A stretch of DNA of 37,793 bases from an uncultured Bacteroidales bacterium (GTDB lineage Bacteria > Bacteroidota > Bacteroidia > Bacteroidales > UBA4417). The stretch is from the NCBI GenBank assembly GCA_903946925.1, contig CAJAXK010000485.1, forward strand, positions 1 to 37,793, written 5' to 3'. The position numbers and the translations under genes were made by a program. Below the pieces are notes generated by a model. That model was given only the letters and a program-made list of their open reading frames with translations, did not search any database and had not been told where the DNA came from. Shown in pieces: positions 13,158-27,570 of the stretch (positions are counted from its first letter, which is position 1; each line of letters opens with the position of its first letter).

Positions 13158-13628
13158 ATGACAAACACAGAAGTATTAATTAAGGAACTGGTTGAAAAGC
13201 ATGGCAGGACGAGAAATGCCTTGATGCCGGTTTTACAGGGAGTTGTTGCCTGTGAAAAATTCCTATCGGAAGCCGCGATGATTGCCGTAGCACGCGAATT
13301 GGATTTATCGGCTGCCGACGTTTATGGCACAGCATCGTTTTACACTTTTCTTGACACAAAGCCTCGCGGCAAAAACATTGTAAGGGTCTGTAAAACAATA
13401 TCATGCCACATGCAAGGCAAAGAGGAAATTATAAAGGCAATCGAAAACCACCTTAAAGTTAAAGTAGGTGAAACTTCCCACGACAACAAGTTTACGCTTT
13501 TAACGGCCAACTGCCTCGGCTGGTGCCATAAAGGGCCGGTAATGCTTATAAATGATGAGGTATTCCCTTCCATTACTCCTGAAAAGGCAATAGCAATCAT
13601 CGAAGAATTCTCAAAAAAATCCAATTAA
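13158..13628 (+). CDS. hydC: NuoE-like [2Fe-2S] subunit of NADH-linked [FeFe]-hydrogenase
   Basis: A 156-residue thioredoxin-fold ferredoxin subunit. Cys78 and Cys83 (CKTISC) with Cys119 and Cys123 (CLGWC) are the four expected [2Fe-2S] ligands. DVYGTASFYTFL is typical of the NuoE/HydC family. It hands electrons between the flavin subunit encoded next and the hydrogenase subunit. It is the first gene of a three-gene operon (26 bp to the NuoF-like gene). Complex I is ruled out because the third gene is a hydrogenase rather than NuoG and no membrane subunits follow. The start is the ATG at 13158, with an A-rich leader. Confidence 0.93.
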   Translation: MTNTEVLIKELVEKHGRTRNALMPVLQGVVACEKFLSEAAMIAVARELDLSAADVYGTASFYTFLDTKPRGKNIVRVCKTISCHMQGKEEIIKAIENHLKVKVGETSHDNKFTLLTANCLGWCHKGPVMLINDEVFPSITPEKAIAIIEEFSKKSN

Positions 13629-13654
13629 TCCGTAAGGTCGAAATCTAAGGTAAC

Positions 13655-14824
13655 ATGGAACAGAAACCATTAAAAAAAATAGATATTATTTTTGGCTGGG
13701 ACGATAATTGCACACCAATACAGGTTGTGGAAAAATCAGTCAAAAAAACCCCGGAGAGCATTATCCTGGATATGATAGATTCAGGTCTTAAAGGCAGGGG
13801 TGGAGCAGGTTTTCCAACAGGGTTAAAATGGAAGTTTGCCCGTAACGAGGAAGCCGATGCAAAATATGTGGTTTGCAATGCCGACGAAGGCGAGCCTGGC
13901 ACATTTAAGGATCGCGAAATCCTTGACAAGGTGCCAGAAAAGATATTTGCGGGCATGACAATCTGCGCATTTGTTGTTGGTGCCCTCGAAGGCTATATTT
14001 ATGTGAGGGGCGAGTATAACTTTATGCTAAAAGCCCTACAACAAAAAATCGATCTATTCAACCAGCAGTTGCACGAATTAAAAGTTGATTTCCATATTTT
14101 CCTCCGTTCGGGCAGTGGCGCGTATGTTTGCGGCGAAGAATCGGCTTTGTTCGAGTCTATGGAAGGCAAACGTGGCGAACCCCGCAACAAACCCCCATAT
14201 CCAACGGTTTCTGGTTATAACGGAAAGCCAACGGTAATTAATAATGTTGAAACCTTGGTTTATACGTCCGAAATATGCCGCATGGGTCCTGAGCAGTTCA
14301 AAGCACTTGGCACACATGATTCAAGAGGTTCAAAGGTATTTTCCGTTTCGGGCGATACCCCCATTGCCGGCATTTATGAACTGGAATTGGGAATGCCACT
14401 TAAAGATTTTGTGGATGAATTTGGCGATGGCGACACCAAAGCCATACAAGTTGGAGGGGCTTCGGGCCACTGTGTCCCACGTAAAAAGTTCAACGACACC
14501 ATAATTGGTTTCGAGGGCATACCCACTGGTGGTTCTATGATGATTTTCAACTCAAGCCGCTCGATGTATAACGTGCTCCACGATTATCTCGAATTTTTTA
14601 CAGAGGAATCATGTGGACAATGTACACCTTGCCGCATTGGCTGCCAGCAATTGCTTAAAGGGATTGAAGCTGTGAAAAAAGGTGAACGCCCACCTACCTA
14701 TCTCGACGATTTGAAAAGATTGACCGCTACAATGAAAATTGCAGCCAAATGTGGCCTTGGGCAGTCAGTGGCCAACCCATTTACGTCAATCGTTGATAAT
14801 TTCCGCGAAGAAATCATTTACTAA
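13655..14824 (+). CDS. hydB: Short NuoF-like flavin subunit of NADH-linked [FeFe]-hydrogenase
   Basis: A 389-residue NADH- and FMN-binding subunit. GLKGRGGAGFPTGLKW (44-59) and VVCNADEGEPGTFKDR (72-87) are the nucleotide/FMN sites, SGSGAYVCGEESAL (152-165) follows, and Cys320, Cys323, Cys326 and Cys366 bind the [4Fe-4S] cluster. It lacks both the N-terminal [2Fe-2S] domain and the C-terminal two-cluster ferredoxin domain that the paralogue at 21342 has. Bifurcating HydB proteins carry those domains, so this short form suggests simple NADH-dependent hydrogen chemistry; that is an inference. The ATG at 13655 follows the stop of the NuoE-like gene by 26 bp; 35 bp separate it from hydA. Confidence 0.93.
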   Translation: MEQKPLKKIDIIFGWDDNCTPIQVVEKSVKKTPESIILDMIDSGLKGRGGAGFPTGLKWKFARNEEADAKYVVCNADEGEPGTFKDREILDKVPEKIFAGMTICAFVVGALEGYIYVRGEYNFMLKALQQKIDLFNQQLHELKVDFHIFLRSGSGAYVCGEESALFESMEGKRGEPRNKPPYPTVSGYNGKPTVINNVETLVYTSEICRMGPEQFKALGTHDSRGSKVFSVSGDTPIAGIYELELGMPLKDFVDEFGDGDTKAIQVGGASGHCVPRKKFNDTIIGFEGIPTGGSMMIFNSSRSMYNVLHDYLEFFTEESCGQCTPCRIGCQQLLKGIEAVKKGERPPTYLDDLKRLTATMKIAAKCGLGQSVANPFTSIVDNFREEIIY

Positions 14825-14859
14825 CCGAGTTTTAAAACAAAAGATAGGAGAATACCACC

Positions 14860-16653
14860 ATGGGTAAATATATGGTTAACCTAAAAATTAATAATACACC
14901 GGTGCAGGTGGAAGAAGGCACCACCATACTTGATGCTGCAAAACAATTGAACTTCCGCATACCCACCCTCTGCAACCATCCCGATCTTAGTGTTGCCGGT
15001 AACTGCCGTGTGTGCGTGGTCGAAGTTAAAGGGGCGCGTTTGCTTGCCGCTTCGTGTGCCACACCCGTTTCGGAAGGCATGGAAGTAAATACCAATAGCG
15101 AAAAAGTACGTATTGCACGCAAACATGTTCTCGAACTTCTGCTTTCGGAACATAACGCCGATTGCACCAAATGTTTTAAAAACGGGCATTGCGAATTGCA
15201 GCAACTCGCTTCCGAATATCGGTATGGAGATCATATTTTCATTGATTTGGTTAAAACGGGCGATAAAGTTTTAGACATCTCTTCGCCCTCAATTACAAAA
15301 GATGCAAGTAAATGCATCCGCTGCCAGCGCTGCGTAAGGACTTGCACCGAACTACAAGCCGTAAGCGCGTTGGCGGTTGTTCATAAAGGCGACCACCAAA
15401 CTATATCAACTTTCCTCGGAAAACCTTTGAATGATGTAGTTTGTACAAATTGCGGACAATGTATAAACCGCTGCCCGACGGGTGCTTTGTACGAACGCAA
15501 CTACATCGAAGATGTATGGCATGCAATATACGACCCTAACAAGTTTGTTGTTGTAGAAACAGCCCCGGCTACCCGTGTTGCTCTTGGCGAAGATCTTGGT
15601 ATTGAAACAGGACAGCGTGTTACTGGCAAAATGGTTTCTGCATTGCGGAAGATGGGCTTTAATAAGGTTTTGGATACCGATTTTACTGCCGACCTAACCA
15701 TTTTAGAAGAAGGCACCGAATTACTTACCCGCCTCAAGAAAGCTTTGGTTGACAAAGACGAAACAGTGAAGTTGCCAATGATGACATCGTGCTCACCTGG
15801 TTGGGTGAAATTCCAGGAACACATGTTCCCCGAACTTTTGGATAACCTTTCATCCTGCAAATCGCCACAACAAATGTTTGGTGCCTTGGCAAAAACCTAC
15901 TATGCCGATAAAATCAATATCAAGGCAGAAAATATGGTTGTAGTTTCAATTATGCCTTGCACCGCCAAAAAATTTGAGTGCAACCGCTCCGAAATGCGCG
16001 ATTCGGGGTTTAAAGACGTGGATTATGTGCTTACCACACGCGAACTTGCCATGATGATTAAGCAAGCTGGCATTGAGTTCGATAAACTTGAAGACGAATC
16101 CTACGATAGCATACTTGGCGAATCAACAGGTGCAGCCGTAATTTTCGGAACAACAGGTGGCGTTATGGAAGCTGCCTTACGAACCGCTTATGAAATTATT
16201 ACCGGAGTTGAAGTTCCTTTTACCAACCTGAATATCAAGCCAGTTCGTGGTATGGAAGGAGTAAAGGAAGCAAGTATAAAAATTAAGAATACCAAACCTG
16301 AATGGAGTTTCCTCGAAGGTGTTGAGTTAAATGTGGCTGTTGCACATGGTTTGGCTAATGCAAAACAATTGATGGAAGCCGTTAATTCCGGGAAAACGAA
16401 TTACCATTTCATTGAGGTTATGGGATGCCCTGGCGGATGTATTGGCGGTGGCGGACAACCAATCCCGACATCAGCTGAAATAAGGAAACGCCGTGCCGAA
16501 GCAATTTATGCCGAAGATATGGGCAAAGCTGTCCGTAAATCGCACGAAAACCCTGAAGTGGCCGAGGTTTACAAGGAATACCTAACCCATCCACTTGGAC
16601 ACAAATCGCATGAACTGCTGCACACCCATTACAAGGCCCGCAAACGCTATTAG
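14860..16653 (+). CDS. hydA: [FeFe]-hydrogenase catalytic subunit, operon A, with TSCSP L1 motif
   Basis: A 597-residue M3-type enzyme. Ligands are visible for the N-terminal [2Fe-2S] (Cys38, 49, 52, 66), the His-Cys3 cluster (His98, Cys102, 105, 111) and two [4Fe-4S] clusters (Cys152/155/158 with 205, and 195/198/201 with 162). H-cluster motifs are L1 TSCSPGW (309-315), L2 MPCTAKKFE (365-373) and L3 EVMGCPGGCIGGGGQP (519-534). Compared with the usual TSCCP, L1 has Ser312 next to the proline, the position of a [4Fe-4S] ligand in the Clostridium pasteurianum enzyme. L3 has MGC for MAC. The small-subunit-like C-terminus (RKSHENPEV...HELLHTHY) is present. An AGGAG site precedes the ATG. It is the last gene of operon A, before a strong terminator. 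Confidence 0.95.
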   Translation: MGKYMVNLKINNTPVQVEEGTTILDAAKQLNFRIPTLCNHPDLSVAGNCRVCVVEVKGARLLAASCATPVSEGMEVNTNSEKVRIARKHVLELLLSEHNADCTKCFKNGHCELQQLASEYRYGDHIFIDLVKTGDKVLDISSPSITKDASKCIRCQRCVRTCTELQAVSALAVVHKGDHQTISTFLGKPLNDVVCTNCGQCINRCPTGALYERNYIEDVWHAIYDPNKFVVVETAPATRVALGEDLGIETGQRVTGKMVSALRKMGFNKVLDTDFTADLTILEEGTELLTRLKKALVDKDETVKLPMMTSCSPGWVKFQEHMFPELLDNLSSCKSPQQMFGALAKTYYADKINIKAENMVVVSIMPCTAKKFECNRSEMRDSGFKDVDYVLTTRELAMMIKQAGIEFDKLEDESYDSILGESTGAAVIFGTTGGVMEAALRTAYEIITGVEVPFTNLNIKPVRGMEGVKEASIKIKNTKPEWSFLEGVELNVAVAHGLANAKQLMEAVNSGKTNYHFIEVMGCPGGCIGGGGQPIPTSAEIRKRRAEAIYAEDMGKAVRKSHENPEVAEVYKEYLTHPLGHKSHELLHTHYKARKRY

Positions 16654-16672: not shown

Positions 16673-16710
16673 AAAGCCGCCAGTTTATTGGCGGCTTTTG
16701 CGTTTTTAGT
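16673..16710 (+). terminator. Terminator of hydrogenase operon A
   Basis: A perfect 10-bp stem, AAAGCCGCCA (16673-16682) with TGGCGGCTTT (16689-16698), and a 6-base loop. It is followed by TTGCGTTTTTAG, about 20 bp after hydA. It separates operons A and B. Confidence 0.85.
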
Positions 16711-16801: not shown

Positions 16802-16861
16802 TGTTATTTAGACTTGTTATAAATACACTGTTATTTTAATAACAGTGTGAAATAAATAACA
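16802..16861. promoter_or_regulatory. Nested palindromes, candidate operator of operon B
   Basis: The inner palindrome ACACTGTTATT-TT-AATAACAGTGT (16825-16848) is perfect. An outer perfect pair TGTTATTTA (16802-16810) and TAAATAACA (16853-16861) encloses it, and another TTGTTATAAA lies between. The centre is about 68 bp upstream of the predicted start. The 18-bp core CTGTTATTTTAATAACAG has the length and TGTTA...TAACA ends of redox-sensing Rex operators, but a Crp/Fnr-type protein is equally possible. Confidence 0.6.
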
Positions 16862-16866
16862 ATACA

Positions 16867-16898
16867 TTTGTTTATCCGGTTAATTACATTTAATTTTG
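16867..16898 (+). promoter_or_regulatory. Promoter of operon B
   Basis: TTTG at 16867-16870 and TAATTTTG at 16891-16898 with a 20-bp spacer match the Bacteroidota consensus (TTTG, about 19-21 bp, TAnnTTTG) closely. The start would be near 16905, leaving a leader of about 75 nt. The palindromic operator ends 5 bp upstream of the -33 box. Apart from the terminator, operator and promoter, the 16654-16978 gap shows nothing. Confidence 0.7.
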
Positions 16899-16978: not shown

Positions 16979-17323
16979 ATGAAATTGAAAGAAATAGCCA
17001 CCATCCTCAACGCTGAAATTGTTTGCGGGCATAGTAAACTCGACAGGGAGGTTAACGCTGTTTTTGCATCGGACTTAATGAGCGATGTACTTACCATTGA
17101 TAGTGAAAAACTCCTGCTCCTCACAGGGCTTGTAAACATTCAAACCATACGGACTTCCGAAATGTCGGACATAAAAAACATCGTGTTGGTTCGCAACAAA
17201 AAGGCCAGTCCTGAAATGATTGCTTTGGCTGAAGAAAACAGGATAGTAATCATGCAATGCAGCTATTCTATGTACAAATCGTGCGGTCTATTGTTTCAAA
17301 ATGGTTTAAACCCTGTATATTAA
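16979..17323 (+). CDS. DRTGG-domain protein, first copy
   Basis: A 114-residue single-domain protein. MKLKEIATILNAEIVCG, the following VFASDLMSDVLTI and the C-terminal segment of a DRTGG fold (INNxx-type VLVRNKKASPEM...) identify it. DRTGG domains occur in HPr kinase N-termini, phosphotransacetylase and CBS-domain proteins, where their role is unclear but probably ligand- or partner-binding. Freestanding copies are typical neighbours of sensory [FeFe]-hydrogenase-like genes. No kinase P-loop is present. It opens operon B and is only 12 bp before the ATPase gene. A related copy at 19255 shares the SDLLSDVMG-type motif, which suggests that the two could pair. Confidence 0.8.
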   Translation: MKLKEIATILNAEIVCGHSKLDREVNAVFASDLMSDVLTIDSEKLLLLTGLVNIQTIRTSEMSDIKNIVLVRNKKASPEMIALAEENRIVIMQCSYSMYKSCGLLFQNGLNPVY

Positions 17324-17335
17324 ACTTAGTACAAT

Positions 17336-17755
17336 ATGCAGTTCGAGTATTCAATAGAAGCAGGTAATTTCACCAAAGCAGGTGATGCATCCAGTAGTTT
17401 TAAAAAAATCCTGAAGCAGCTCAATGTTGACCCCCAAATCATAAAACGGATAGTAGTTTCGCTTTACGAAGGCGAAGTAAATATTGTAGCACATGCCAAT
17501 GGCGGCAAAGTTATCTGCGAAGTTGATCCCAGCCGCGTTTATATACAGCTTATTGATAAAGGGCCAGGAATACCGGATATTCCGAAAGCCATGCAAGCGG
17601 GATATTCCACTGCATCGGCTAAAGTTAGGGAGATGGGCTTCGGTGCGGGCATGGGCCTACAAAATATCAAGAATAATGCCGACGAACTTATTATCAATAG
17701 CGAAGTGGGCGTTGGTACAAAACTTGAAATAATTGTCAACCTGCCACACTCATAA
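17336..17755 (+). CDS. Anti-sigma-type (RsbW/SpoIIAB-like) ATP-binding protein
   Basis: A 139-residue GHKL ATPase with no other domain. The N box is SLYEGEVNIVAHA (Glu45/47, Asn49), the G1 box is DKGPGIPD (74-81) and the glycine-rich lid is GFGAGMGLQNIK (101-112). The size and the EGEVNIVAHA pattern are of the anti-sigma factor/serine kinase group rather than a classical histidine kinase, as there is no dimerisation helix and no phospho-histidine box. No sigma factor, STAS anti-anti-sigma or PP2C phosphatase is encoded in this window, so the partner is unknown. It is translated with tight coupling to its neighbours: 12 bp after the DRTGG gene and 3 bp before the hydrogenase-like gene. Confidence 0.85.
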   Translation: MQFEYSIEAGNFTKAGDASSSFKKILKQLNVDPQIIKRIVVSLYEGEVNIVAHANGGKVICEVDPSRVYIQLIDKGPGIPDIPKAMQAGYSTASAKVREMGFGAGMGLQNIKNNADELIINSEVGVGTKLEIIVNLPHS

Positions 17756-17758
17756 GTT

Positions 17759-19108
17759 ATGGATAGCAAACACTTTCATCATGCACTGAAAATAAGCAGC
17801 GAAATCTGTATGGGTTGTTCGCATTGCATGAGTGTTTGCCCTACCGAAGCCATACGGGTGCGCAATGGTAAAGCCATACTTTACGAAAACCGCTGCGTTG
17901 ATTGTGGCGAGTGTTTTAAAGCCTGCCCTGTGAGCGCAATATATATTGATCAGGACGATTTTGTAAGGATACAGGCATACAATTACCGTATTGCATTGGT
18001 TCCGGCGGTCTTTTTTGGGCAGTTTCCCGAAGAAGTTACCCATAACCAAATTTACAACGCTATATTGGCAAACGGGTTTACACACATTTACGAAGTGGAA
18101 ATGGGTGTTGATCTGTTAGTGGACGAAGTGAAAGCTTACGCAAAATCGCACCCGGAAAAAAAACCACTAATTTCTTCGTTCTGCCCTGCAATCATAAGGT
18201 TGGTTCAGGTAAAATTCCCGGCACTTACCGAAAATATAATACTGCTAAAACCTCCATTGGATATTACTGCTTTGTATTGCCGCAAGGAACTGACCGACAA
18301 AGGCGTGAACCCGGCTGAAATTGGCGTTTTTTACATTACCCCATGCGCTGCTAAGATTGCCGCAATCAAAAGCCCCGTTGGCGAGGACTATTCCATGATC
18401 ACAGGTGTGATAAATATGGATACGCTATACAATAAGGTGTATAAATTTATACGCAACGACAGATCGCTGAACCCTAAACAAAATTCATACAGGCCGCTTT
18501 CAAAAACAGCTTTGGAGTGGACACTCACCCGAGGCGAAGCAAGCCATGTACCAGGCAGGAGCCTTGCCATTGACGAAATCCACAATGTTATCGAATTTTT
18601 AGAAAAAATAGAAAACGATGAAATTGGCGACATTGATTTCCTGGAACTCCGGGCTTGCGACGAAAGTTGTGCCGGTGGTGTACTTTTATCAGCCAACCGT
18701 TTCCTTGTAGCCGAAAGGTTAAGGGCATATTCGAAGGCAGAAACCAAGGGATTAAATAAAACTGAAGGCATACTCGCCTATAAAGAGTATCTGTTGCGCA
18801 GAATGAACATTCAATCAATAAACCCACGCAGCATGATGAAATTGGACGAAAACATGGAAATTGCCATGCGCAAGATGGAAAAATCGGGCCGCATGCTGCA
18901 ATGCCTGCCTTTAACCGATTGCGGCGCCTGTGGAGCACCTAATTGCCAGGCATTCGCTAACGATATTGCACTTGGCGAAGCCGACATAAGGCAATGCATT
19001 TTCATCCAAAAAAACAGGGAGCAAACCGGCGAACTTTCACCTGACGAATCCCTCGAAATGCTCAAAAGCATCTGGGGCAACGATAAGTTTTTCTCCAATA
19101 GCAAATAG
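17759..19108 (+). CDS. Ferredoxin / H-cluster / FeS protein, putative H2 sensor (group C/D-like hydrogenase)
   Basis: A 449-residue protein in three parts. Residues 15-60 form a 2[4Fe-4S] ferredoxin (Cys17, 20, 23, 27 and 46, 49, 52, 56). About 75-345 is an [FeFe]-hydrogenase large-subunit C-terminal domain in which all four H-cluster cysteines survive (Cys142, 196, 300, 304). The motifs have drifted: L1 is SSFCPAI with Phe141 where the proton-relay cysteine normally sits, L2 is TPCAAKIAA without the usual Glu, and L3 is RACDESCAGG. About 385-415 is a PF04060-type FeS domain (Cys388, 391, 396, 413). The PAS domain of group C HydS is absent. Loss of the relay points to sensing or very slow turnover rather than catalysis. 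It sits centrally in the regulatory half of operon B. Confidence 0.88.
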   Translation: MDSKHFHHALKISSEICMGCSHCMSVCPTEAIRVRNGKAILYENRCVDCGECFKACPVSAIYIDQDDFVRIQAYNYRIALVPAVFFGQFPEEVTHNQIYNAILANGFTHIYEVEMGVDLLVDEVKAYAKSHPEKKPLISSFCPAIIRLVQVKFPALTENIILLKPPLDITALYCRKELTDKGVNPAEIGVFYITPCAAKIAAIKSPVGEDYSMITGVINMDTLYNKVYKFIRNDRSLNPKQNSYRPLSKTALEWTLTRGEASHVPGRSLAIDEIHNVIEFLEKIENDEIGDIDFLELRACDESCAGGVLLSANRFLVAERLRAYSKAETKGLNKTEGILAYKEYLLRRMNIQSINPRSMMKLDENMEIAMRKMEKSGRMLQCLPLTDCGACGAPNCQAFANDIALGEADIRQCIFIQKNREQTGELSPDESLEMLKSIWGNDKFFSNSK

Positions 19109-19111
19109 AAT

Positions 19112-19204
19112 AGTGAATTACGAGGTACGAATTACGAATGAAGAATTACGAATGAAGAATTACCAATAACCACTAACCATTAACACTTCGACTTCGCTCA
19201 GTTT
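19112..19204. repeat. Fragment of family B-like repeat inside operon B
   Basis: GAATTACGAGGTACGAATTACGAATGAAGAATTACG and similar units are followed by CCAATAACCACTAACCATTAA and ACACTTCGACTTCGCTCAG (19183-19201). The words are those of the family B repeats. This fills most of the only wide gap (146 bp) in the otherwise tight 5' half of operon B. Confidence 0.6.
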
Positions 19205-19207
19205 CCG

Positions 19208-19244
19208 CCAATAACCAATAACCAATAACCAATAACTAATAACC
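19208..19244. repeat. Heptamer microsatellite (CCAATAA)4 plus one variant
   Basis: Four perfect CCAATAA units, one CTAATAA and a trailing CC, ending 10 bp before the second DRTGG gene. It is the reverse complement of the GGTTATT array at 258-315. Confidence 0.9.
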
Positions 19245-19254
19245 ACTCCCCAAC

Positions 19255-19590
19255 ATGCAGGTAAAAGATATAATTTCAATACTCGATTTGAAAATATTTG
19301 GTGGAAACCAAGGATTAGAACGCGAAATTTCAGGCGGTTATACTTCTGATTTGCTGAGCGATGTAATGGGCCATGCCGATAGTGGCAAAGTGTGGATCAC
19401 CTTACAGACACATAAAAATGTAATCGCAATAGCTTCGCTAAAGGAATTGGCTGCCGTAATATTGATCAAAGGGTTGGAGCCTGATGCCGATATGCTGGCC
19501 CAAGCCGAAGAAGAAGGGATTGCTGTTTTGGGTAGCAACGAGCAGGCTTTCGAGGTAACCGGAAAACTATTTAACTTGCTAACACGCTAA
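19255..19590 (+). CDS. DRTGG-domain protein, second copy
   Basis: A 111-residue relative of the protein at 16979: MQVKDIISILDLKIFGG, then SGGYTSDLLSDVMGHA and a C-terminal QAEEEGIAVLGSNEQAFEVT. It is a complete freestanding DRTGG domain without catalytic motifs. Two diverged copies flanking the H-cluster protein suggest a heteromeric scaffold or ligand-binding pair; this is an inference. It starts at the ATG at 19255 directly after the CCAATAA microsatellite, so its translation signals lie in repeat DNA (CACTCCCCAAC precedes the ATG, no Shine-Dalgarno sequence). It is followed after 2 bp by the PHP gene. Confidence 0.8.
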   Translation: MQVKDIISILDLKIFGGNQGLEREISGGYTSDLLSDVMGHADSGKVWITLQTHKNVIAIASLKELAAVILIKGLEPDADMLAQAEEEGIAVLGSNEQAFEVTGKLFNLLTR

Positions 19591-19592
19591 AA

Positions 19593-20333
19593 ATGAACAC
19601 CTACCGGGCCGACCTCCACTTACACACAGTACTTTCTCCCTGTGGCGATTTGGAAATGAGCCCGGCAAATATGATAAGCAAAGCTTGCGAAAAAGGCCTG
19701 GATATTATTGGCATAACCGACCATAACTCAACCAAACATTGCAAGCTTATTAAAAAAATGGCCGAACCCGCCGGATTGTTTGTGCTGATGGGAGCCGAAG
19801 TTACAACACGCGAAGAAGTACATTGCCTCACGTTCTTTGAAAACGATAGCCAATTAGATGAATTTCAGCATTATCTGGAAGAACATCTGCCTCCTATCCT
19901 TAACAATATTGAAAAATTCGGGTATCAGGTAGTTGTTGATGAAAATGAGAATATACTTGAGCAGGTTGATTTTTTGTTGCTTTCGGCCCTGGATCAATCC
20001 ATTGAGCAAATCGAAAAAAAGGTTCACTCGTTGGGCGGCATTTTTATCCCTGCCCATATCGACAGGCCAAGCTACAGCATAATCAGCCAATTGGGGTTTA
20101 TTCCCGGCGACCTTTTGATTGATGGGATCGAAATATCGGCCAACTGTAAGTTGCAGTCGGCAATGCCAATGATGCCCAAAAATTTTGAAAAAGCAATAAT
20201 CAGGAGTTCGGACGCACATTACATTCAAGATATTGGAAAAGTTTTTACAGTTTTCGAGATGGAATGCCGTACTTTTAGTGAAATTAAAAAAGCCCTACAA
20301 AACACAATGGAACGTAAAGTTTCGATAGCATGA
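19593..20333 (+). CDS. PHP-domain phosphoesterase
   Basis: A 246-residue metal-dependent hydrolase-type protein. Polymerase-and-histidinol-phosphatase motifs are all present: DLHLHT (Asp7, His9, His11), ITDHN (Asp43, His44), Glu69 in GAEVTTREEVH with His77, AHIDRPS (His155) and SSDAH (Asp207, His209). This gives a full set for a two- or three-metal centre. Relatives include nucleotidases and phosphatases acting on small phosphates; the substrate here is not evident. Its conserved place between DRTGG and ATPase genes suggests that it breaks down a phospho-ligand or phosphoprotein in the regulatory module (inference). Its stop overlaps the next gene's ATG by 4 bp (ATGA). Confidence 0.85.
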   Translation: MNTYRADLHLHTVLSPCGDLEMSPANMISKACEKGLDIIGITDHNSTKHCKLIKKMAEPAGLFVLMGAEVTTREEVHCLTFFENDSQLDEFQHYLEEHLPPILNNIEKFGYQVVVDENENILEQVDFLLLSALDQSIEQIEKKVHSLGGIFIPAHIDRPSYSIISQLGFIPGDLLIDGIEISANCKLQSAMPMMPKNFEKAIIRSSDAHYIQDIGKVFTVFEMECRTFSEIKKALQNTMERKVSIA

Positions 20334-20875
20334 AAGATTTAGCTTCGCACATACTTGATATTTTGCAAAATTCGGTAACAGCCGGGTCAAGCCTGATTGA
20401 GGTCAGTATTGACGAACTGCCTGTTTCTGATAAGTATGTGTTGCGGATTGTGGACGATGGCAAAGGAATGGATGCCGAAACGATAAAACAAGTAACAGAT
20501 CCGTTTTTCACTACCCGAACAACCCGAAAAGTAGGGCTTGGATTGCCTTTGTTGAAGCAAAATGTGGAACGTACAGGAGGCAGTTTTGCCATCCATTCGC
20601 AACTCGGAAAAGGGACTGAAGTGGTAGCAGAATTCGGATTTAATCATCTTGATAGGCTCCCAACCGGCGATATTGCAGGCACTTTGGCATTAACGGCTTC
20701 GTCATATCCCGAAATTGATTTTTTCTACACGCATACCACGTCCATAGCAACATTTGTATTCGATACTATCGAAATAAAAGAAAAACTGGAAAGCATCCCC
20801 ATTAACGATCCAGAAGTTATCAATTTTATGAAAGATTTGATACGCGACAACCTAACGTCAATAAAAGCATCCTAA
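20330..20875 (+). CDS. GHKL ATPase (histidine-kinase-like ATP-binding domain without phosphoacceptor helix)
   Basis: A 181-residue protein. The N box is HILDILQNSVTAGSSLIE (Asn14), laid out like MutL/Hsp90-type GHKL proteins; the G1 box is VDDGKGMD (41-48) and the G2 region is TRKVGLGLPLLKQ (65-77). There is no HisKA dimerisation domain, so it is not an ordinary sensor kinase. Residues 110-181 form a small extra domain of unknown type. It is translationally coupled to the PHP gene by the 4-bp overlap and followed after 47 bp by the HndB-like gene. Together with the anti-sigma-type ATPase at 17336 it gives the module two different ATP-binding switches. A role in phosphorylation of a protein partner is possible but unproven. 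Confidence 0.85.
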   Translation: MKDLASHILDILQNSVTAGSSLIEVSIDELPVSDKYVLRIVDDGKGMDAETIKQVTDPFFTTRTTRKVGLGLPLLKQNVERTGGSFAIHSQLGKGTEVVAEFGFNHLDRLPTGDIAGTLALTASSYPEIDFFYTHTTSIATFVFDTIEIKEKLESIPINDPEVINFMKDLIRDNLTSIKAS

Positions 20876-20922
20876 ATAAATAATTAGCAACGATTTACCA
20901 ACAGTAAAAAAATCAAAACCAA

Positions 20923-21321
20923 ATGACAAAAATCACATCATTAGCTGATTTAAAAAACATTAAAGCGTCTGTTGAGGCCAAAATGAGTCTTCGCGAACGC
21001 AGCGAAACGCCTGATAGCATGGTGCAAATCAGGGTAGCGATGGCCACTTGCGGCATTGCATCGGGTGCCAAGATAGTAATGGATTATCTGATCAACGAAC
21101 TAGACAAACGCAGCATACCAGCCATAGTAACCCAAACAGGCTGCATGGGATATTGCTACGCCGAACCAACCATTGAGGTAACGCGCCCAGGCCAACAACC
21201 CCTGGTATTTGGGTATGTTGATTCAAAAAAAGCCGACCAGATTATTGAAAAATACATCAAAAATGGCGAGCTGCTCGATGGCATTATCCCAGTTAACTAC
21301 GAAAACATTGAAGGCAAGTAA
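20923..21321 (+). CDS. hndB: HndB-like thioredoxin-fold [2Fe-2S] protein
   Basis: A 132-residue subunit resembling HndB of the Desulfovibrio NADP-reducing hydrogenase. Three cysteines are visible at the cluster positions: Cys43 in MATCGIASGA, and Cys74 and Cys78 in GCMGYCYAEP. The spot where a classical NuoE-type domain has its second cysteine is Ser/Gly here, as I recall for HndB proteins as well, so cluster ligation may be incomplete or use another residue. The first 30 residues are a charged helix. It is 20 bp before hndC and probably belongs to the tetrameric hydrogenase rather than to the sensor module, though it could link the two. Confidence 0.8.
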   Translation: MTKITSLADLKNIKASVEAKMSLRERSETPDSMVQIRVAMATCGIASGAKIVMDYLINELDKRSIPAIVTQTGCMGYCYAEPTIEVTRPGQQPLVFGYVDSKKADQIIEKYIKNGELLDGIIPVNYENIEGK

Positions 21322-21341: not shown

Positions 21342-23135
21342 ATGACACAATTCAAAATGCACCTGCTGGTGTGCGGAGGTACCGGCTGCCGGGCTTCGGA
21401 AAGCGAAACGCTTTTTCTTAGCCTGAAAAAAGAAGTTTCGGAAAAAGGTTTAGAAAGTGAAGTGCAGGTAATTACAACCGGATGCTTTGGCTTTTGCGAA
21501 AAAGGCCCAATCGTGAAAGTGATGCCCGACAACACTTTTTACACCCAGGTTAAACCCGAAGATGCAATCGAAATTATTGCAGAGCACGTTATTAAAGGTC
21601 GCAAGGTCAATCGCTTGCTGTATGTGAACCCCGAAACCGAACAACATGTTTCCGATTCGAAACACATGGGTTTTTACCGCAAACAACTTCGCATCGCTTT
21701 GCGCAACTGCGGGTTTATTGATCCCGAAAACATCGAAGAATACATTTCGCGCGATGGGTATGCTGCATTGGCAAAATGTTTGACAGAAATGACTCCTGCC
21801 CAGGTTATAGAAGAAATGAAAAAGAGTGGTCTTCGTGGCCGTGGTGGCGGAGGATTCCCAACCGGGCTGAAATGGGAAATTACCAGCAAGAGCCAAGCTG
21901 ACCAAAAATATGTAGTTTGCAACGCCGACGAAGGCGACCCTGGCGCATTTATGGATCGTTCGATCCTTGAAGGCGACCCACATTCGGTAATAGAAGCCAT
22001 GGCCATTTGTGGTTATTGCATAGGCGCAACTAAAGGTGTGGTGTATATCCGTGCCGAATATCCGTTAGCTGTCGAAAGGTTGAAAATAGCCATGAAACAA
22101 GCTTCCGAATTTGGTTTGCTGGGCAAAAATATTTTCGGGACCGATTTTGAATTTGAAATAGATATCCGCTACGGCGCAGGTGCGTTTGTTTGTGGCGAGG
22201 AAACTGCCCTAATCCATTCCATGGAAGGCTTGCGTGGCGAACCAACCATTAAACCACCGTTCCCAAGCGTTTCGGGCTATCTCGAAAAACCAACCAATGT
22301 AAACAATGTTGAAACTTTTGCCAATGTTCCGGTAATCATCAACAAAGGTGCTGCCTGGTTTGCTTCCATTGGAAGTGAAAAATCGAAAGGCACCAAGGTA
22401 TTCGCATTGGCTGGAAAAATAAACAACGTTGGACTTATAGAAGTTCCAATGGGTACCACTTTGCGTGATATCATCTTCGAAATTGGCGGTGGCATTAAAG
22501 ACGGCAAAAAATTTAAAGCTGTGCAAACAGGCGGTCCTTCGGGAGGTTGCCTCACCGAAAAACACCTTGATATAGCTATTGACTTCGATTCGTTGACCGC
22601 CGCCGGTTCCATGATGGGATCGGGTGGTATGATTGTTATGGACGAAGATGACTGTATGGTTTCCATCGCAAAATTCTACCTCGATTTTACCGTTGAAGAA
22701 TCCTGCGGAAAATGCGCACCATGTCGTATAGGCAACAAGCGCTTGAACGAGATGTTGGAAAAAATATGCGAAGGGAAAGGTACCATGAAGGATCTGGACC
22801 TTTTGCGAAACCTGAGTTATGTAATCAAGGACACTTCGCTTTGCGGACTTGGGCAAACCTCGCCAAACCCGGTACTCTCGACCATGGAAAATTTTTACCC
22901 TGAGTACTTGGCGCATATTGTTGACCATAAATGCCCAAGTGGACAGTGCAAGGCTCTGTTACAATACGTAATTGAAGCCGAAAACTGCGTTGGTTGTACC
23001 GCTTGTGCCCGCAACTGCCCTGTCAACGCAATATCCGGCGAACGTAAAGGCATCCATGTTATTGATCAGGCTACCTGTATAAAATGTGGCGCCTGTTTGG
23101 AAAAATGTAAGTTCAACGCAGTGTTTATCAAGTAA
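21342..23135 (+). CDS. hndC: HndC: NuoF-type flavin subunit with extra [2Fe-2S] and ferredoxin domains
   Basis: A 597-residue subunit with three modules. Residues 1-90 are a thioredoxin-like [2Fe-2S] domain (Cys11, 16, 48, 52). About 110-520 is the NuoF core with GLRGRGGGGFPTGLKW (163-178), CNADEGDPGAFMDRS and the [4Fe-4S] ligands Cys455, 458, 461 and 501. About 540-597 is a two-cluster ferredoxin (Cys549, 552, 555, 559 and 579, 582, 585, 589). This full set matches the flavin subunit of electron-bifurcating [FeFe]-hydrogenases, where FMN splits electrons between NAD(P) and ferredoxin. A GGAGGA site lies just upstream of the ATG. The genes on both sides are 20 and 16 bp away. Confidence 0.95.
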   Translation: MTQFKMHLLVCGGTGCRASESETLFLSLKKEVSEKGLESEVQVITTGCFGFCEKGPIVKVMPDNTFYTQVKPEDAIEIIAEHVIKGRKVNRLLYVNPETEQHVSDSKHMGFYRKQLRIALRNCGFIDPENIEEYISRDGYAALAKCLTEMTPAQVIEEMKKSGLRGRGGGGFPTGLKWEITSKSQADQKYVVCNADEGDPGAFMDRSILEGDPHSVIEAMAICGYCIGATKGVVYIRAEYPLAVERLKIAMKQASEFGLLGKNIFGTDFEFEIDIRYGAGAFVCGEETALIHSMEGLRGEPTIKPPFPSVSGYLEKPTNVNNVETFANVPVIINKGAAWFASIGSEKSKGTKVFALAGKINNVGLIEVPMGTTLRDIIFEIGGGIKDGKKFKAVQTGGPSGGCLTEKHLDIAIDFDSLTAAGSMMGSGGMIVMDEDDCMVSIAKFYLDFTVEESCGKCAPCRIGNKRLNEMLEKICEGKGTMKDLDLLRNLSYVIKDTSLCGLGQTSPNPVLSTMENFYPEYLAHIVDHKCPSGQCKALLQYVIEAENCVGCTACARNCPVNAISGERKGIHVIDQATCIKCGACLEKCKFNAVFIK

Positions 23136-23151
23136 GAAAGGGGAATAAACC

Positions 23152-24924
23152 ATGGAAATGATTAACATAAAAATAGACAATAAAGAAATAAAAGTAGCCC
23201 CAGGGACTACCGTATTGGATGCCGCAAAATCGGTTGGGATTAAAATCCCGACACTTTGCTACCTCCACCTTCATGATTTTGATATCACGAACAAACCTGC
23301 AGGTTGCCGTATTTGTGTTGTTGAAGTAAAAGGACGCCGCAACCTGGCACCCGCCTGTGCAACAGATTGTTTCGAAGGCATGGAAGTTAACACACACAAT
23401 ATCCGTGTGCTCAACAGCCGCAAAACCGTTCTGGAACTTATCCTAAGCGACCACCCGACCGATTGTCTTATTTGCCCAAAAAGCGGTAGCTGCGAACTGC
23501 AAACCCTGGCTCAGGATATGGGAATCCGCCAGATTGAATACCAAGGAGAGCAATCCCATTATAAGGAAGATACTTCACCAGCCATAATCCGCGATGTGGA
23601 TAAATGTATTATGTGCCGCCGTTGCGAAATGATGTGCAACGATGTACAAACCGTTGGAGTGCTTTCGGCTGTAAACCGCGGCTTTATGTCGGTGGTAGCA
23701 CCTGCTTTTGAGATGAACCTCGACCATAGCACTTGTACCTATTGCGGGCAATGCGTGGCTGTTTGCCCAACCGGAGCATTAACAGAAGTGGACCACACCA
23801 ACCAAGTTATACGCGCATTGGCCGATCCTTCAAAAACCGTAATTGTTCAAACCGCACCAGCAGTGCGTGTTGCATTAGGCGAAGAATTCGGGATGGATGC
23901 GGGTTCGATTGTTACCGGGAAAATGGTAACTGCTCTGCGCCAGCTTGGCTTCGACTATGTTTTTGATACCGATTTTGCCGCCGACCTTACCATTTTGGAA
24001 GAAGGCACCGAATTGCTCGACCGCATAACCCGCCATTTGAAGGGCGATAAAACTGTAAAACTGCCAATACTTACTTCATGCTGCCCAGGCTGGGTTAATT
24101 TCTTCGAGCACCAGTTCCCCGAAATGAACGACATCCCATCTACAGCACGTTCACCTCAACAAATGTTTGGAGCCATTGCCAAAACATATTTCGCCGAGAA
24201 ATTAGGCATTAAACGCGAAAACCTTGTTGTTGTTTCCATTATGCCATGTTTGGCAAAAAAATACGAATGCCAGCGCGATGAATTCGAGACCAATGGAAAC
24301 CCAGATGTTGATTTTGCTGTTTCCACCCGAGAACTTGCACACCTTATCAAACAAGCAAACATTGATTTCAACATTTTGCCAGACGAAGATTTCGACCGAC
24401 CAATGGGCGAATCAACAGGGGCTGCTGTAATATTTGGAACAACCGGTGGTGTAATAGAAGCGGCCGCCCGCACCGCTTATGAAATATTTACAGGAAAAAA
24501 CCTGGAAAAAGTTGATTTCAAACAACTACGCGGGATGGAATGGATCCGTCATGCGGAAGTCGATTTTGATGGTACACCTATCAGGATTGGCATTGCACAC
24601 GGTTTGGGAAACGCCCGCAAGTTGCTTCAGGATATAAAAGACGGCAAATCCGATTTCCATGCCATAGAAATCATGGCCTGCCCCGGTGGTTGTATTGGAG
24701 GTGGCGGTCAACCGCTGCATCATGGCGATACGAGTATTTTAATGAGCCGTCAAAAAGCGCTCTATACCGAAGACACCCACAAAACGCTCAGAAAATCGCA
24801 CGAAAACCCATATATCCAACAATTATATGCCGACTTCCTTGGTAAACCGATGAGCGAAAAAGCGCATCACCTGCTTCACACACATTATTTCGACAAAAGC
24901 AAGCCAGCCGAAATAAGCGAATAA
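23152..24924 (+). CDS. hndD: HndD: [FeFe]-hydrogenase catalytic subunit, operon B
   Basis: A 590-residue M3-type hydrogenase. The [2Fe-2S] ligands are Cys36, 52, 55 and 69; the His-Cys3 cluster uses His101, Cys105, 108 and 114; two [4Fe-4S] clusters use Cys152/155/158/162 and 195/198/201/205. The H-cluster motifs are canonical: L1 TSCCPGW (308-314), L2 MPCLAKKYE (364-372) and L3 EIMACPGGCIGGGGQP (506-521). The protein is complete, with the C-terminal RKSHENP...HHLLHTHYF segment. It should be the H2-forming or H2-oxidising site of the HndABCD-type complex. A strong AAAGGGG ribosome site precedes the ATG. It is clearly a paralogue of the operon A enzyme but differs in the L1 and L3 residues noted there. 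Confidence 0.96.
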   Translation: MEMINIKIDNKEIKVAPGTTVLDAAKSVGIKIPTLCYLHLHDFDITNKPAGCRICVVEVKGRRNLAPACATDCFEGMEVNTHNIRVLNSRKTVLELILSDHPTDCLICPKSGSCELQTLAQDMGIRQIEYQGEQSHYKEDTSPAIIRDVDKCIMCRRCEMMCNDVQTVGVLSAVNRGFMSVVAPAFEMNLDHSTCTYCGQCVAVCPTGALTEVDHTNQVIRALADPSKTVIVQTAPAVRVALGEEFGMDAGSIVTGKMVTALRQLGFDYVFDTDFAADLTILEEGTELLDRITRHLKGDKTVKLPILTSCCPGWVNFFEHQFPEMNDIPSTARSPQQMFGAIAKTYFAEKLGIKRENLVVVSIMPCLAKKYECQRDEFETNGNPDVDFAVSTRELAHLIKQANIDFNILPDEDFDRPMGESTGAAVIFGTTGGVIEAAARTAYEIFTGKNLEKVDFKQLRGMEWIRHAEVDFDGTPIRIGIAHGLGNARKLLQDIKDGKSDFHAIEIMACPGGCIGGGGQPLHHGDTSILMSRQKALYTEDTHKTLRKSHENPYIQQLYADFLGKPMSEKAHHLLHTHYFDKSKPAEISE

Positions 24925-24964: not shown

Positions 24965-25441
24965 ATGGCAAACATAAAAATAAACGAGCAGAAGGTTCAA
25001 CAAATTGAAGCTATCTGCAAAAAGTTCAACAACGAAAAGGGCGAACTTATCAATGTATTGCACCAAACACAAAGCTTGGTTGGCTACCTGCCTGCCGAGG
25101 TTCAGGAAATTATAGCAAAAAACCTGAATTGCTCTGTAGCCCATGTGTATGGTGTGGTTACGTTCTACTCTTTCTTCACCATGATACCTAAAGGCGAATT
25201 CCCAATCAGTATTTGCATGGGAACAGCTTGTTATGTGCGCGGTGCCGAAAAAGTGTTGGACGAATTCAAACGCATCCTCAATGTACCCGTTGGGCAAACA
25301 ACCCCTGATGGCAAATTTTCGCTAAGCTGTTTACGCTGCGTTGGTGCCTGTGGGCTTGCACCTGTGGTAATGGTTGGCGAAAAGGTTTACGGACGCGTAT
25401 CGCCCGATGGTGTTAAGGACATCATCAAAGAGTACAAATAG
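24965..25441 (+). CDS. hndA: HndA: NuoE-type [2Fe-2S] subunit, operon B
   Basis: A 158-residue thioredoxin-fold ferredoxin subunit. Cys84 and Cys89 (CMGTAC) with Cys125 and Cys129 (CVGAC) are the [2Fe-2S] ligands; VAHVYGVVTFYSFF and the GxxPVVMVGEKVYGRVSPD end are typical of NuoE/HndA. An extra Cys122 lies just before the second ligand pair. Gene order B-C-D-A differs from the A-B-C-D order of the classical hnd operon. It is the last gene of operon B, 40 bp after hndD, and is followed directly by a terminator. A complex I subunit is excluded by the context. Confidence 0.94.
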   Translation: MANIKINEQKVQQIEAICKKFNNEKGELINVLHQTQSLVGYLPAEVQEIIAKNLNCSVAHVYGVVTFYSFFTMIPKGEFPISICMGTACYVRGAEKVLDEFKRILNVPVGQTTPDGKFSLSCLRCVGACGLAPVVMVGEKVYGRVSPDGVKDIIKEYK

Positions 25442-25863: not shown

Positions 25864-27570
25864 ATGAACACAGATTCCAACAATATCGCTGCCTTGCAAA
25901 AGGAGATAGAACTTTTAAAAGCAGAAAACAACCAACTAAATGCCAGTTTGCTCAAGCAAAAAGGATTTGAACTGCTTGAACTCGAAGCAGATGAAATAAG
26001 GAAGCAGTCGGAGAAAGCCAACCGGATAAAAAGTGATTTCCTCTCGATGATGAGCCACGAGATACGGACCCCGATGAATGGGATTGTGGGCATGACAAGT
26101 TTATTGCTCGATACAAAAATTACACCCGAACAACAAAATTATCTCGAAACTTTGCGCCTCAGTGCCGATAACCTGATGGCGATAATAAACGATATCCTTG
26201 ATTTCTCAAAAATAGAAGCCGACAAACTAATCCTCGACCAAAATTCATTCGAACTCAGGAAATGCATCGAGGAAGCACTTGACGTATATGCCGTAAAAGC
26301 AATCGAAAAAGGGATCGATCTGCTCTATATGCTTCAACCTGAAACCCCGCCTTTTTTAATCGGCGACATGAAAAGGGTGCGTCAGATACTTGGCAACCTG
26401 ATAAACAATGCGGTAAAATTTACCGATGAAGGCGAAATTTTTATTTCGGTTGAAAAGAAATCGCAAAACGAAGAATATTGCGAATTGCTTTTTTCGGTAA
26501 AGGACAGCGGTATAGGTATTAAGAGCGATAAACTATTGATGATTTTTGAAGCCTTTACCCAAACCGAATCATTTGCTTCGCGCCGCTATGGCGGCACAGG
26601 ACTGGGTTTGTCCATTGCAAGGCATTTGGTTGGTTTAATGGGAGGTACCATTTGGGCCGAAAGTAAACATGGCAAAGGGGCAACATTTTATTTTACCATA
26701 AAACTGAAAATTGCCGACACACCAACTACCAAATTGTACATTAGGGGCCAAATACCGGAACTTAGAGGAAGCAAAGTATTGATTGTTGACAGCGATGCCA
26801 CTTCGCGGCAAATATTTACCGTGCAATTCGAGGCTTGGGGAATGAAGGCAATTACGGCATCGAGTGCAAAAGAAGCCATGCGCATTATCGAAACCGAAGA
26901 ATCGTACTTTGATTTGGGTATTTTAGAAATGCAGGCTGCCGGGCTAAACGGAATAGAGCTGGCACAATCCATACGCGAAATCCCTTTTAAAGGGGACATG
27001 CCGTTTATTTTGGTTTCATCGGTTGGCAAAGTCAACGACCTGCCAAAGGGGCTTTTCGATGCGCAGCTATCAAAACCGGTAAAACTTACCGACTTGTTCG
27101 AGCTTGTGCTTGGTGTAATGTCCGAAAACAGGAACAAACAAAAGAACGTGGCCGGGCATAGTATCGACAAAAAACTTTCGGACAAACTGCCTTTGCGCAT
27201 CCTTTCTGCCGAGGACAACCCCACAAACCAGGAGCTTGTTGTTACAGTAATGAAAAAAATGGGCTATACCATTGATGCTGTGGAAAACGGCAAAAAAGCC
27301 TTGGAAATAATGGAGCACAACACCTACGATATTATACTTATGGATGTGCAGATGCCGGTAATGAACGGAATGGAAGCTACCCAAGAAATTATAAATAAAT
27401 ATCCCGAAAACGAAAGGCCTTTTATTATTGCCCTTACGGCAAATGCCATGCCTGGCGACAGGGAAAGATTCCTCGAAGCAGGAATGGTTGACTATTTGTC
27501 AAAACCAATACGTTTTAAAGATGTTCAGGATGTTTTGATCCGTTGGGGAAGAAAGAAGCTAAGTCAGTAA
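25864..27570 (+). CDS. Soluble hybrid histidine kinase with one degenerate and one intact receiver
   Basis: A 568-residue protein. Residues 5-55 form a coiled coil, HisKA has SHEIRTPMNG with phospho-His65, and HATPase_c spans about 165-282 (GNLINNAVKFTDEG, DSGIGI, RYGGTGLGLS). Receiver 1 (about 303-415) has ILEMQ at the phosphorylation site, so Glu355 replaces Asp and it is probably a pseudo-receiver. Receiver 2 (about 445-562) has ILMDVQMP with Asp494 and the AEDN and KP landmarks. There is no signal peptide, membrane segment or sensory domain, so input must come through the coiled coil or a partner protein. No histidine phosphotransfer protein is in view. Its location right after operon B makes the hydrogenase sensor module a conceivable partner, but it has its own promoter. 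Confidence 0.92.
   Translation: MNTDSNNIAALQKEIELLKAENNQLNASLLKQKGFELLELEADEIRKQSEKANRIKSDFLSMMSHEIRTPMNGIVGMTSLLLDTKITPEQQNYLETLRLSADNLMAIINDILDFSKIEADKLILDQNSFELRKCIEEALDVYAVKAIEKGIDLLYMLQPETPPFLIGDMKRVRQILGNLINNAVKFTDEGEIFISVEKKSQNEEYCELLFSVKDSGIGIKSDKLLMIFEAFTQTESFASRRYGGTGLGLSIARHLVGLMGGTIWAESKHGKGATFYFTIKLKIADTPTTKLYIRGQIPELRGSKVLIVDSDATSRQIFTVQFEAWGMKAITASSAKEAMRIIETEESYFDLGILEMQAAGLNGIELAQSIREIPFKGDMPFILVSSVGKVNDLPKGLFDAQLSKPVKLTDLFELVLGVMSENRNKQKNVAGHSIDKKLSDKLPLRILSAEDNPTNQELVVTVMKKMGYTIDAVENGKKALEIMEHNTYDIILMDVQMPVMNGMEATQEIINKYPENERPFIIALTANAMPGDRERFLEAGMVDYLSKPIRFKDVQDVLIRWGRKKLSQ

Follow-up and report, generated by a model that had tools for sequence, protein, structure and literature searches.

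A conserved six-gene module with a group D-type [FeFe]-hydrogenase homologue in Bacteroidales, and its possible role as a switch on NADH-linked enzymes

The window, meaning the whole stretch of DNA analysed, is the 37,793-nucleotide contig CAJAXK010000485.1 of an uncultured Bacteroidales bacterium (assembly GCA_903946925.1), and the system in question is a set of six genes on its forward strand. Under working names, the products are two DRTGG proteins (DR1 and DR2, or DRTGG-1 and DRTGG-2), a SpoIIAB-like ATPase (HATa), an H-cluster protein (HydS), a PHP-domain protein (PHP) and a GHKL ATPase (HATb). The module is composed of DR1, HATa, HydS, DR2, PHP and HATb, and the HndB-like gene that follows them belongs to the adjacent enzyme. 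H2 sensing, the function given to the locus by an earlier sequence-only reading, is not the common denominator of the module, which is also found beside formate dehydrogenase, HdrA-like and NuoG/molybdopterin-like enzymes, in genomes lacking a HydG match, and in forms without HydS. We consider it possible, while stopping short of calling it probable, that the products of the six genes act in trans, and probably post-translationally, as a switch on the NADH/ferredoxin-linked Bfu-type complexes that share NuoE and HydB (BfuBC). Genomes, loci (DNA stretches) and families are labelled G, L and f.

The genes concerned in the window are as follows (lengths in amino acids, aa).

16979 to 17323, forward strand: DR1, 114 aa (PF07085, 27.3 bits, cut-off 25.2); the stretch SDLMSDVLT is near-invariant over 21 loci.
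17336 to 17755, forward strand: HATa, SpoIIAB/RsbW-like Bergerat ATPase, 139 aa (HATPase_c_2); best NCBIfam match TIGR01925 spIIAB, 46.3 bits, below the cut-off of 135.
17759 to 19108, forward strand: HydS, group D (M2e)-type [FeFe]-hydrogenase homologue, 449 aa (two Fer4, Fe_hyd_lg_C, FeS, no PAS).
19255 to 19590, forward strand: DR2, 111 aa (PF07085, 26.3 bits, cut-off 25.2).
19593 to 20333, forward strand: PHP, putative metallophosphoesterase, 246 aa (PF02811, PF13263).
20330 to 20875, forward strand: HATb, GHKL ATPase with a C-terminal extension, 181 aa (HATPase_c, 58.7 bits).
20923 to 21321, forward strand: HndB-like [2Fe-2S] thioredoxin-fold protein, assigned to the enzyme and not to the module (2Fe-2S_thioredx, below the gathering score).
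21342 to 23135, forward strand: HydB (HndC, BfuB-type), NADH/FMN subunit, matched by the HydB-set profile and named by homology.
23152 to 24924, forward strand: HydA (HndD), catalytic [FeFe]-hydrogenase with the motifs TSCCPGW and EIMACPGGC (NF040763, 910.9 bits, cut-off 765).
24965 to 25441, forward strand: NuoE (HndA, BfuC-type) subunit (PF01257, 165.9 bits).

Extent and co-inheritance of the module

The sequence-only reading had proposed a module of seven co-directional genes at 16979 to 21321, HndB included, that runs straight into hydrogenase genes. All seven open reading frames (ORFs) are present at these coordinates on the forward strand, and the Pfam gathering scores are exceeded by both DRTGG proteins, both HATPases, PHP, and Fe_hyd_lg_C with Fer4 and FeS. 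The HydB gene starts 20 bp after HndB, in agreement with the proposal. The gaps across the seven ORFs are 12, 3, 146, 2, -4 and 47 bp; the spacing of mostly 2 to 47 bp described earlier thus holds in general and fails between HydS and DR2, where 146 bp of low-complexity sequence in the window compare with 11 bp in the relative L018. This segment (19109 to 19254) is an AATAACC-type low-complexity repeat and resembles a recent small insertion.

The inclusion of HndB did not survive the comparison with genomes that lack HydS. We collected 35 enzyme loci from such genomes, 30 of which were usable (three had too little upstream sequence, one had no whole HydB and one no HydA). No module gene above 60 bits is found in 27 of the 30 (a 44-bit HATb match in L205 was not scored as a module gene), and HndB is present in 26 of the 30. 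HndB thus remains part of the enzyme operon when the module is missing, and a seven-gene unit is rejected.

The gene-order survey covered the best 80 of 559 loci, 62 of them with enough flanking sequence and 51 with room downstream. The six genes occur in the same order and on the same strand in 57 of the 62, with median gaps of -1 to 9 bp in these complete loci. Among the other five, L098 has PHP and HATb in a single ORF, and four lack at least one gene within reach. Continuation into HndB, HydB and HydA is seen in 49 of the 51 loci, so the conserved neighbourhood that the earlier reading had suggested looking for does exist, with six genes, beyond what chance would produce.

Co-inheritance was followed in 295 genomes of Bacteroidales that are at least 90% complete. 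HydS is found in 97, PHP in 101 and both in 94 (Fisher p = 3e-64; these genomes are kin and not independent, and the Fisher and shuffle figures given here overstate the significance). HydS occurs without PHP in G081, G148 and G175, and PHP without HydS in G047, G083, G100, G149, G152, G274 and G304. The HydS profile matched 114 genomes at E 1e-30 or better; 17 were excluded (best matches 8.4e-31 to 1.8e-36, open frames of 577 to 691 aa) and 97 retained. G175 was counted as HydS-positive despite being a contig-end fragment, as were G081 and G148, where HydS is short and PHP was not found. In five genomes (G209, G137, G179, G127, G308) HydS and PHP lie on different contigs and are both present. 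In a sample of the phylum (n = 394), HydS at E 1e-60 or better is found in 5 genomes, 3 of them outside the order.

The two halves of the module can also be separated. DR1-HATa-HydS stands alone in L165 and L167, where DR2 is absent within about 9 kb; DR2-PHP-HATb precedes DR1-HATa-HydS in L164 and remains with the enzyme in L191; and in L118 DR1-HATa-HydS-DR2-PHP is divergent from NuoE-HATb-HndB-HydB-HydA.

Enzyme partners and the place of HydS

The neighbouring enzyme has the NuoE and HydB core with an exchangeable third subunit that defines the Bfu family. The sequence-only reading had the module fused in cis to a catalytic hydrogenase, which is common, as the 49 of 51 loci demonstrate, and not obligatory. 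In Parabacteroides distasonis, whose record is labelled a plasmid but has gyrA and is therefore probably chromosomal, the 21 kb that surround the module contain no HndB, HydB or HydA, nor do the module stretches L154, L156, L157 and L163, and strict cis linkage to a hydrogenase is rejected by these cases. The f100 genomes carry HndB-HydB-HydA-NuoE elsewhere than the module (L171 and L173; L172 has no NuoE match).

Several third subunits accompany the module. In L186, L187 and L188, NuoE-HndB-HydB is followed by a 2Fe-2S/HdrA-like fusion, a set that would be a putative NADH-linked enzyme. The genomes G482, G490 and G645 combine the module and NuoE-HndB-HydB with such a protein of 586 to 588 aa, which scores 429 to 445 bits against the HdrA2 model, below its full-length cut-off. 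Formate dehydrogenase alpha takes the third position in L233 (TIGR01591, 901.5 bits, cut-off 666) and stands beside a five-gene, HydS-free version of the module in G100. In L160 and L161, NuoE-NuoF and a NuoG/molybdopterin-like protein are preceded by DRTGG, a DRTGG-HATPase fusion and a short HydS, and G081 and G148 show this arrangement, with a shorter HydS and with no PHP found.

HydS resembles the group D (M2e) [FeFe]-hydrogenases in its sequence features. The Pfam search finds two N-terminal 4Fe-4S motifs and no PAS domain, which rules out group C. Residues were placed by alignment in CpI numbering and counted on 120 distinct sequences (125 rows held five genomes twice). All four cubane cysteines are kept in 120 of 120, in line with the earlier description of an H-cluster-type Fe-S protein. 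The C-terminal Cx2Cx4Cx16C motif (C388, C391, C396, C413) is exact in 119 sequences, its cysteines being kept in 120, 120, 120 and 119. The position of CpI C299 is Phe in 116, Tyr in 3 and Ala in 1; that of M353 is Thr in 118 and Ser in 2; and that of M497 is Arg in 114. In Subdoligranulum, a Firmicute, the homologue carries Ala at the C299 position and Asp at that of M497, and the Firmicute homologue in L118 is 32.4% identical. The AlphaFold model of HydS (predicted local distance difference test, pLDDT, 84.9) has template modelling scores, normalised to the query, of mostly 0.61 to 0.66 to the [FeFe]-hydrogenases among most of its top matches.

HydS is not tied to the maturases of the diiron site in every genome. 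Among 13 HydS-positive genomes queried for both HydE and HydF, nine have HydE, HydF and HydG all below cut-off (G018, G058, G064, G084, G105, G114, G198, G265, G283), the absence of HydG in G198 and G265 being read from their not being among the matches listed. Three of the nine are the three f100 genomes among the matches listed, which are 99% complete. These three (G114, G198, G265, one family; L171, L172, L173) contain a canonical HydA and no HydE, HydF or HydG over cut-off, pointing to missed genes or another maturation route. In the two near-complete genomes G482 and G645, HydS is the only Fe_hyd_lg_C (PF02906) protein found. HydG is absent from both and from G490; in G482 and G645 the searches covered HydG and PF02906. 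The genome of the window has seven Fe_hyd_lg_C matches, three of them within the window.

HydS seems to be an optional part of the module. It is missing from G047, G149, G100 and G152 (three families), which keep the other five genes; a HydS of this type matching at E 1e-37 or better is not found anywhere else in these genomes. The gap from HATa to DR2 is at most 15 bp in three of these and 131 bp in one, and HydS is present in relatives (G228 and G288 of f33; G052 and G229 of f38). The protein at the HydS position in G304 keeps Fer4 and FeS and has no Fe_hyd_lg_C match at E 0.001.

A possible switch and its alternatives

The ATP site of HATa is invariant over 21 aligned loci (E45, N49, D74-x-G-P-G, GFGAGMGL). 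HATb keeps its glycine motifs and has Asp in the N-box of the alignment; most relatives of this fold have Glu there. The HATb model (pLDDT 91.6) matches the N-terminus of MutL best, with histidine kinases and the branched-chain ketoacid dehydrogenase (BCKDH) kinase among its top 50 PDB matches. The PHP residues D7, H9, H11, D43, H44, E69, H77, H155, D207 and H209, which we take to be metal ligands by analogy with PHP enzymes, are invariant over 21 loci, so that the phosphoesterase predicted earlier would have an intact site. DR2 has an invariant signature of its own (W47, T49, Q51, H53, N55), separate from that of DR1, and the two proteins therefore probably have two roles. DR1 and HATa are fused in L160 and L161 and otherwise lie a median of 9 bp apart. 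PHP and HATb are fused in L020/L098, one genome of the window's genus, as one 427-aa ORF (L020:10619-11902). None of the seven proteins has a DNA-binding, receiver, HisKA or STAS domain above the Pfam cut-offs; the pairing of HisKA/DHp with a receiver that makes a two-component system has no Pfam match among them, and the earlier suggestion of a possible relay that does without such a pair is borne out to that extent.

Three further features precede DR1 in the window.

16673 to 16698, forward strand: terminator-like hairpin after the upstream NuoE-HydB-HydA operon, 11 pairs, 6 of them GC, with a T-rich tail.
16825 to 16862, no strand assigned: Rex-like operator pair, a palindrome at 16825 to 16848 and an overlapping second site at 16845 to 16862, of a class found in 61 of 111 DR1 upstream regions.
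16863 to 16898, forward strand: two TAnnTTTG elements (16863 to 16870 and 16891 to 16898), presumably of the Bacteroidota -7 type; the motif occurs in 73 of 111 upstream regions, with 25% expected.

The hairpin is the longest stem of its region, where 7 terminator-like matches compare with 6.1 in shuffles, and lies immediately 3' of the stop codon of the upstream HydA gene. DR1 therefore probably opens a new unit, and DR1 through HndB-HydB-HydA-NuoE is predicted to be probably one transcription unit. Beyond its two ends lie a second, different NuoE-HydB-HydA set directly upstream (13158 to 16653), whose HydA has TSCSPGW in place of TSCCPGW, and an ORF just downstream of NuoE (25864 to 27570) that by eye resembles a hybrid histidine kinase with receiver regions.

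Rex-like sites were sought in 330 bp upstream with at most one mismatch, against an expectation from Markov shuffles. The 61 of 111 distinct DR1 upstream regions compare with 0.57 expected. The counts before the other module genes are 0 of 117 (HATa), 0 of 112 (HydS), 1 of 109 (DR2), 0 of 110 (PHP) and 4 of 101 (HATb); before HydA the site is found in 0 of 78 and before HndB in 8 of 87. In module-less operons it stands before HndB in 16 of 23 (0.12 expected). Conservation applies to the class of site and not to the exact 24-bp palindrome seen in the window, and the site probably goes with whichever gene is first in the unit. The NADH/NAD+ ratio therefore probably already sets transcription, and as the module encodes no DNA-binding or receiver domain above a cut-off, a post-translational role is more likely. 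Related sites have been considered elsewhere: one upstream of the Hyd operon of Caldicellulosiruptor bescii was among those picked for Rex binding tests, as far as the text consulted goes (PMC6391272), and in Thermoanaerobacterium, hfsABCD and hydG have predicted upstream sites of the same form in the portion seen (PMC5886521).

From the gene content and order, the co-inheritance, the intact catalytic residues, the fusions, the several third subunits, the HydS-free forms and the Rex-like site, all of which are observed, we infer each functional step of the proposed switch. It would have two halves, DR1-HATa-HydS and DR2-PHP-HATb, both of which combine one DRTGG domain with one Bergerat ATPase and one metalloprotein. 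HydS would be an Fe-S input for the redox state of the ferredoxin/NADH pool, reporting H2 only where a diiron site is fitted, and would inform DR1 and HATa, acting as one signalling unit. DR2, PHP and HATb would form a second unit, in which HATb, adjoining HndB and HydB, may be a kinase-like ATPase on the enzyme and PHP may reverse or tune its action; this is conceivable because GHKL proteins include kinases of dehydrogenase complexes such as BCKDH kinase. The DRTGG domains may sense a nucleotide, which is plausible because DRTGG occurs in CBS-pyrophosphatases that respond to AMP, ADP and Ap4A (PMC10742508, from the portion available). Rex-like control would then act on the amount of enzyme and the module on its activity. 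The C-terminal Fe-S cluster of TamHydS, the group D protein of Thermoanaerobacter mathranii, was not reduced by H2 according to the available part of PMC13104023. Somewhat more doubtful than the switch itself is an extension in which HydS, no longer holding a diiron site, would serve as an exchangeable Fe-S sensor of redox state, within a general post-translational switch that is driven by ATP and gates the NuoE-HydB core, whether the enzyme makes H2, oxidises formate or feeds an HdrA-type flavoprotein.

A number of points weigh against the proposed switch. Its kinase step relies on the fold of HATb, whose best match is MutL; in the CBS-pyrophosphatases it is the CBS domains that bind the nucleotide, as the part of PMC10742508 consulted describes; DR1 also matches PucR below cut-off (21.6 against 33.5 bits); the PHP-HATb fusion, known from a single genome, could be a sequencing frameshift; and no Rex-like site is found at the detached modules L154, L156, L157 and L117, nor at L186 and L187. 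Other points bear on H2. HydA of the window's type is present in 91 of the 97 HydS-positive genomes. HydG is over cut-off in 85 of 97 HydS-positive and 100 of 198 HydS-negative genomes, as an H2 role predicts. K358 is kept in 118 of 120 HydS sequences, and together with the conserved cubane ligands it is compatible both with a complete H-cluster and with a bare cubane. The maturase-free genomes are weakened as proof of a diiron-free HydS, seven of the nine having a canonical-motif HydA (the remaining two are G058, with a strong PF02906 protein, and G064, which showed none of the HydA motifs); a canonical HydA without HydE, HydF and HydG means that maturases are missing from the assemblies or that HydA is matured otherwise. 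The HdrA-type genome G490 has a second Fe_hyd_lg_C protein.

These last observations suit the view of group C and D [FeFe]-hydrogenases taken in the literature, that they are putative H2 sensors regulating hydrogenase expression. The H-cluster of HydS would bind H2 and signal through the ATPases to an unlinked transcription factor, as the group D features of HydS, its tracking of HydG and work on related systems would suggest: group D/M2e genes are located 5' of the genes for trimeric bifurcating hydrogenases, often with kinases between (PMC3561251, in part), TamHydS, the group D enzyme that has been studied, converts H+ and H2 into one another and has a flanking AraC-family regulator, which would fit a transcriptional output (PMC8163306, in part), and work on R. 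albus and Thermoanaerobacterium points to regulation by group C relatives (PMC11837493, in part). We nevertheless think an H2 sensor unlikely. The module has HydS-free forms and no transcriptional output domain, HydE, HydF and HydG all fall short of the family cut-offs in 9 of the 97 HydS-positive genomes, and HydS is the only PF02906 protein found in the HydG-less G482 and G645. The Phe/Arg pair at C299 and M497 sets HydS apart from TamHydS, which has Leu at the latter position (PMC8163306, as far as seen), and both the Phe and K358 are retained in L154, L156, L157, L186 and L187, which come from HydG-less genomes. Slightly less likely again is a role in the assembly or maturation of the NuoE-HydB core, with the ATPases as chaperones and HydS as an Fe-S scaffold. 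It would explain why the module follows the core regardless of the third subunit, it accords with the likeness of HATb to MutL-type ATPases, and maturation and/or regulation is assumed for HydD, HydP and HisK of A. mobile (PMC8880783, in the part consulted). However, HydS is missing from 37 of the 128 genomes with the same HydA type, and in 27 of the 30 visible operons the six genes are all missing; production of the enzyme therefore probably does not require the module. A partner-switching role, in which HATa would be an anti-sigma-type kinase whose partner, a STAS protein or a sigma factor, has its gene at another site, is very unlikely in our estimate. The spIIAB family is the best NCBIfam match of HATa, the E, N and glycine boxes are intact, and a SpoIIE phosphatase comes after the group C relative in R. 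albus, yet the HATa score falls well short of that family, no STAS antagonist, SpoIIE or sigma gene is found among the seven genes by Pfam (the rest of the genome was not searched for such partners), and DR1, not a STAS protein, is the conserved partner of HATa, fused to it in two genomes.

Should the proposed switch exist, anaerobes could use it to restrain the enzymes on which their balance of NADH and ferredoxin depends, and the predicted signal would be the redox or nucleotide state of the bifurcating enzymes, not H2. Natural experiments are offered by modules that lack HydS, by modules not accompanied by a hydrogenase and by the detached module of Parabacteroides distasonis.

Comparison with known systems

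Parts of this system are already known: the gene list of Halanaerobium, group D genes upstream of bifurcating hydrogenases, HydD/HydP/HisK, and the exchange of third subunits in the Bfu family (PMC9304861, in part). In the open-access literature searched, parts of which were available, we found no description of the near-perfect co-inheritance, the loss and gain as a block, the non-hydrogenase neighbours, the HydS-free forms, the Phe/Arg pocket or a Rex-like operator heading the unit in this order.

The sequence-only reading had stated that similar sets are known and that no mechanism is described, to which a printed gene list can be added. Halsa_1862-1871 of Halanaerobium hydrogeniformans, given as one putative operon, comprises an iron hydrogenase, NADH dehydrogenase, a ferredoxin-like protein, a histidine kinase, NuoE, a PHP protein, an 'iron-sulfur binding hydrogenase', an Fe-S cluster protein, an anti-sigma factor and an ORF. 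By gene list alone it is evidently the same gene set in a Firmicute, and in the part of the paper seen it comes without analysis or mechanism and without DRTGG being named (PMC4237134). The NiFe-HydABCSL operon of A. mobile likewise has extra HydD, HydP and HisK genes beside a Bfu enzyme, as here; no group D HydS is named in the portions consulted, and HisK would correspond to HATb and HydP to PHP, judging from the gene names alone (PMC8880783, PMC9304861). The anti-sigma kinases SpoIIAB and RsbW share the fold and ATP-site residues of HATa, but the module has no STAS or sigma partner and HATa scores below the family cut-off.

The group C (M2f) proteins TmHydS, R. albus HydS and HfsB resemble HydS in having a related H-domain and a C-terminal Fe-S motif, and a regulatory role has been proposed or genetically suggested for this group (PMC10055695, PMC11837493, both in part). 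They differ in their PAS domain, and in R. albus the genes after HydS encode a SpoIIE phosphatase and a 4Fe-4S protein.

TamHydS of group D is like HydS in lacking PAS, in its two N-terminal [4Fe-4S] motifs and C-terminal Cx2Cx4Cx16C motif, in the loss of C299 and in the change of M353 to Ser/Thr, and genes of its group often share an operon with group A enzymes and adjoin a histidine-kinase-like ATPase, as in the window; DRTGG or PHP partners are not mentioned in the part of that account consulted (PMC8163306). HydS differs from TamHydS in the Phe at C299 and the Arg at M497, and from group D in being found also beside non-hydrogenase enzymes and without HydG. A 2026 paper, in the part available, calls finding the interaction partners of group D critical (PMC13104023), and the module described here names a conserved candidate set of such partners.

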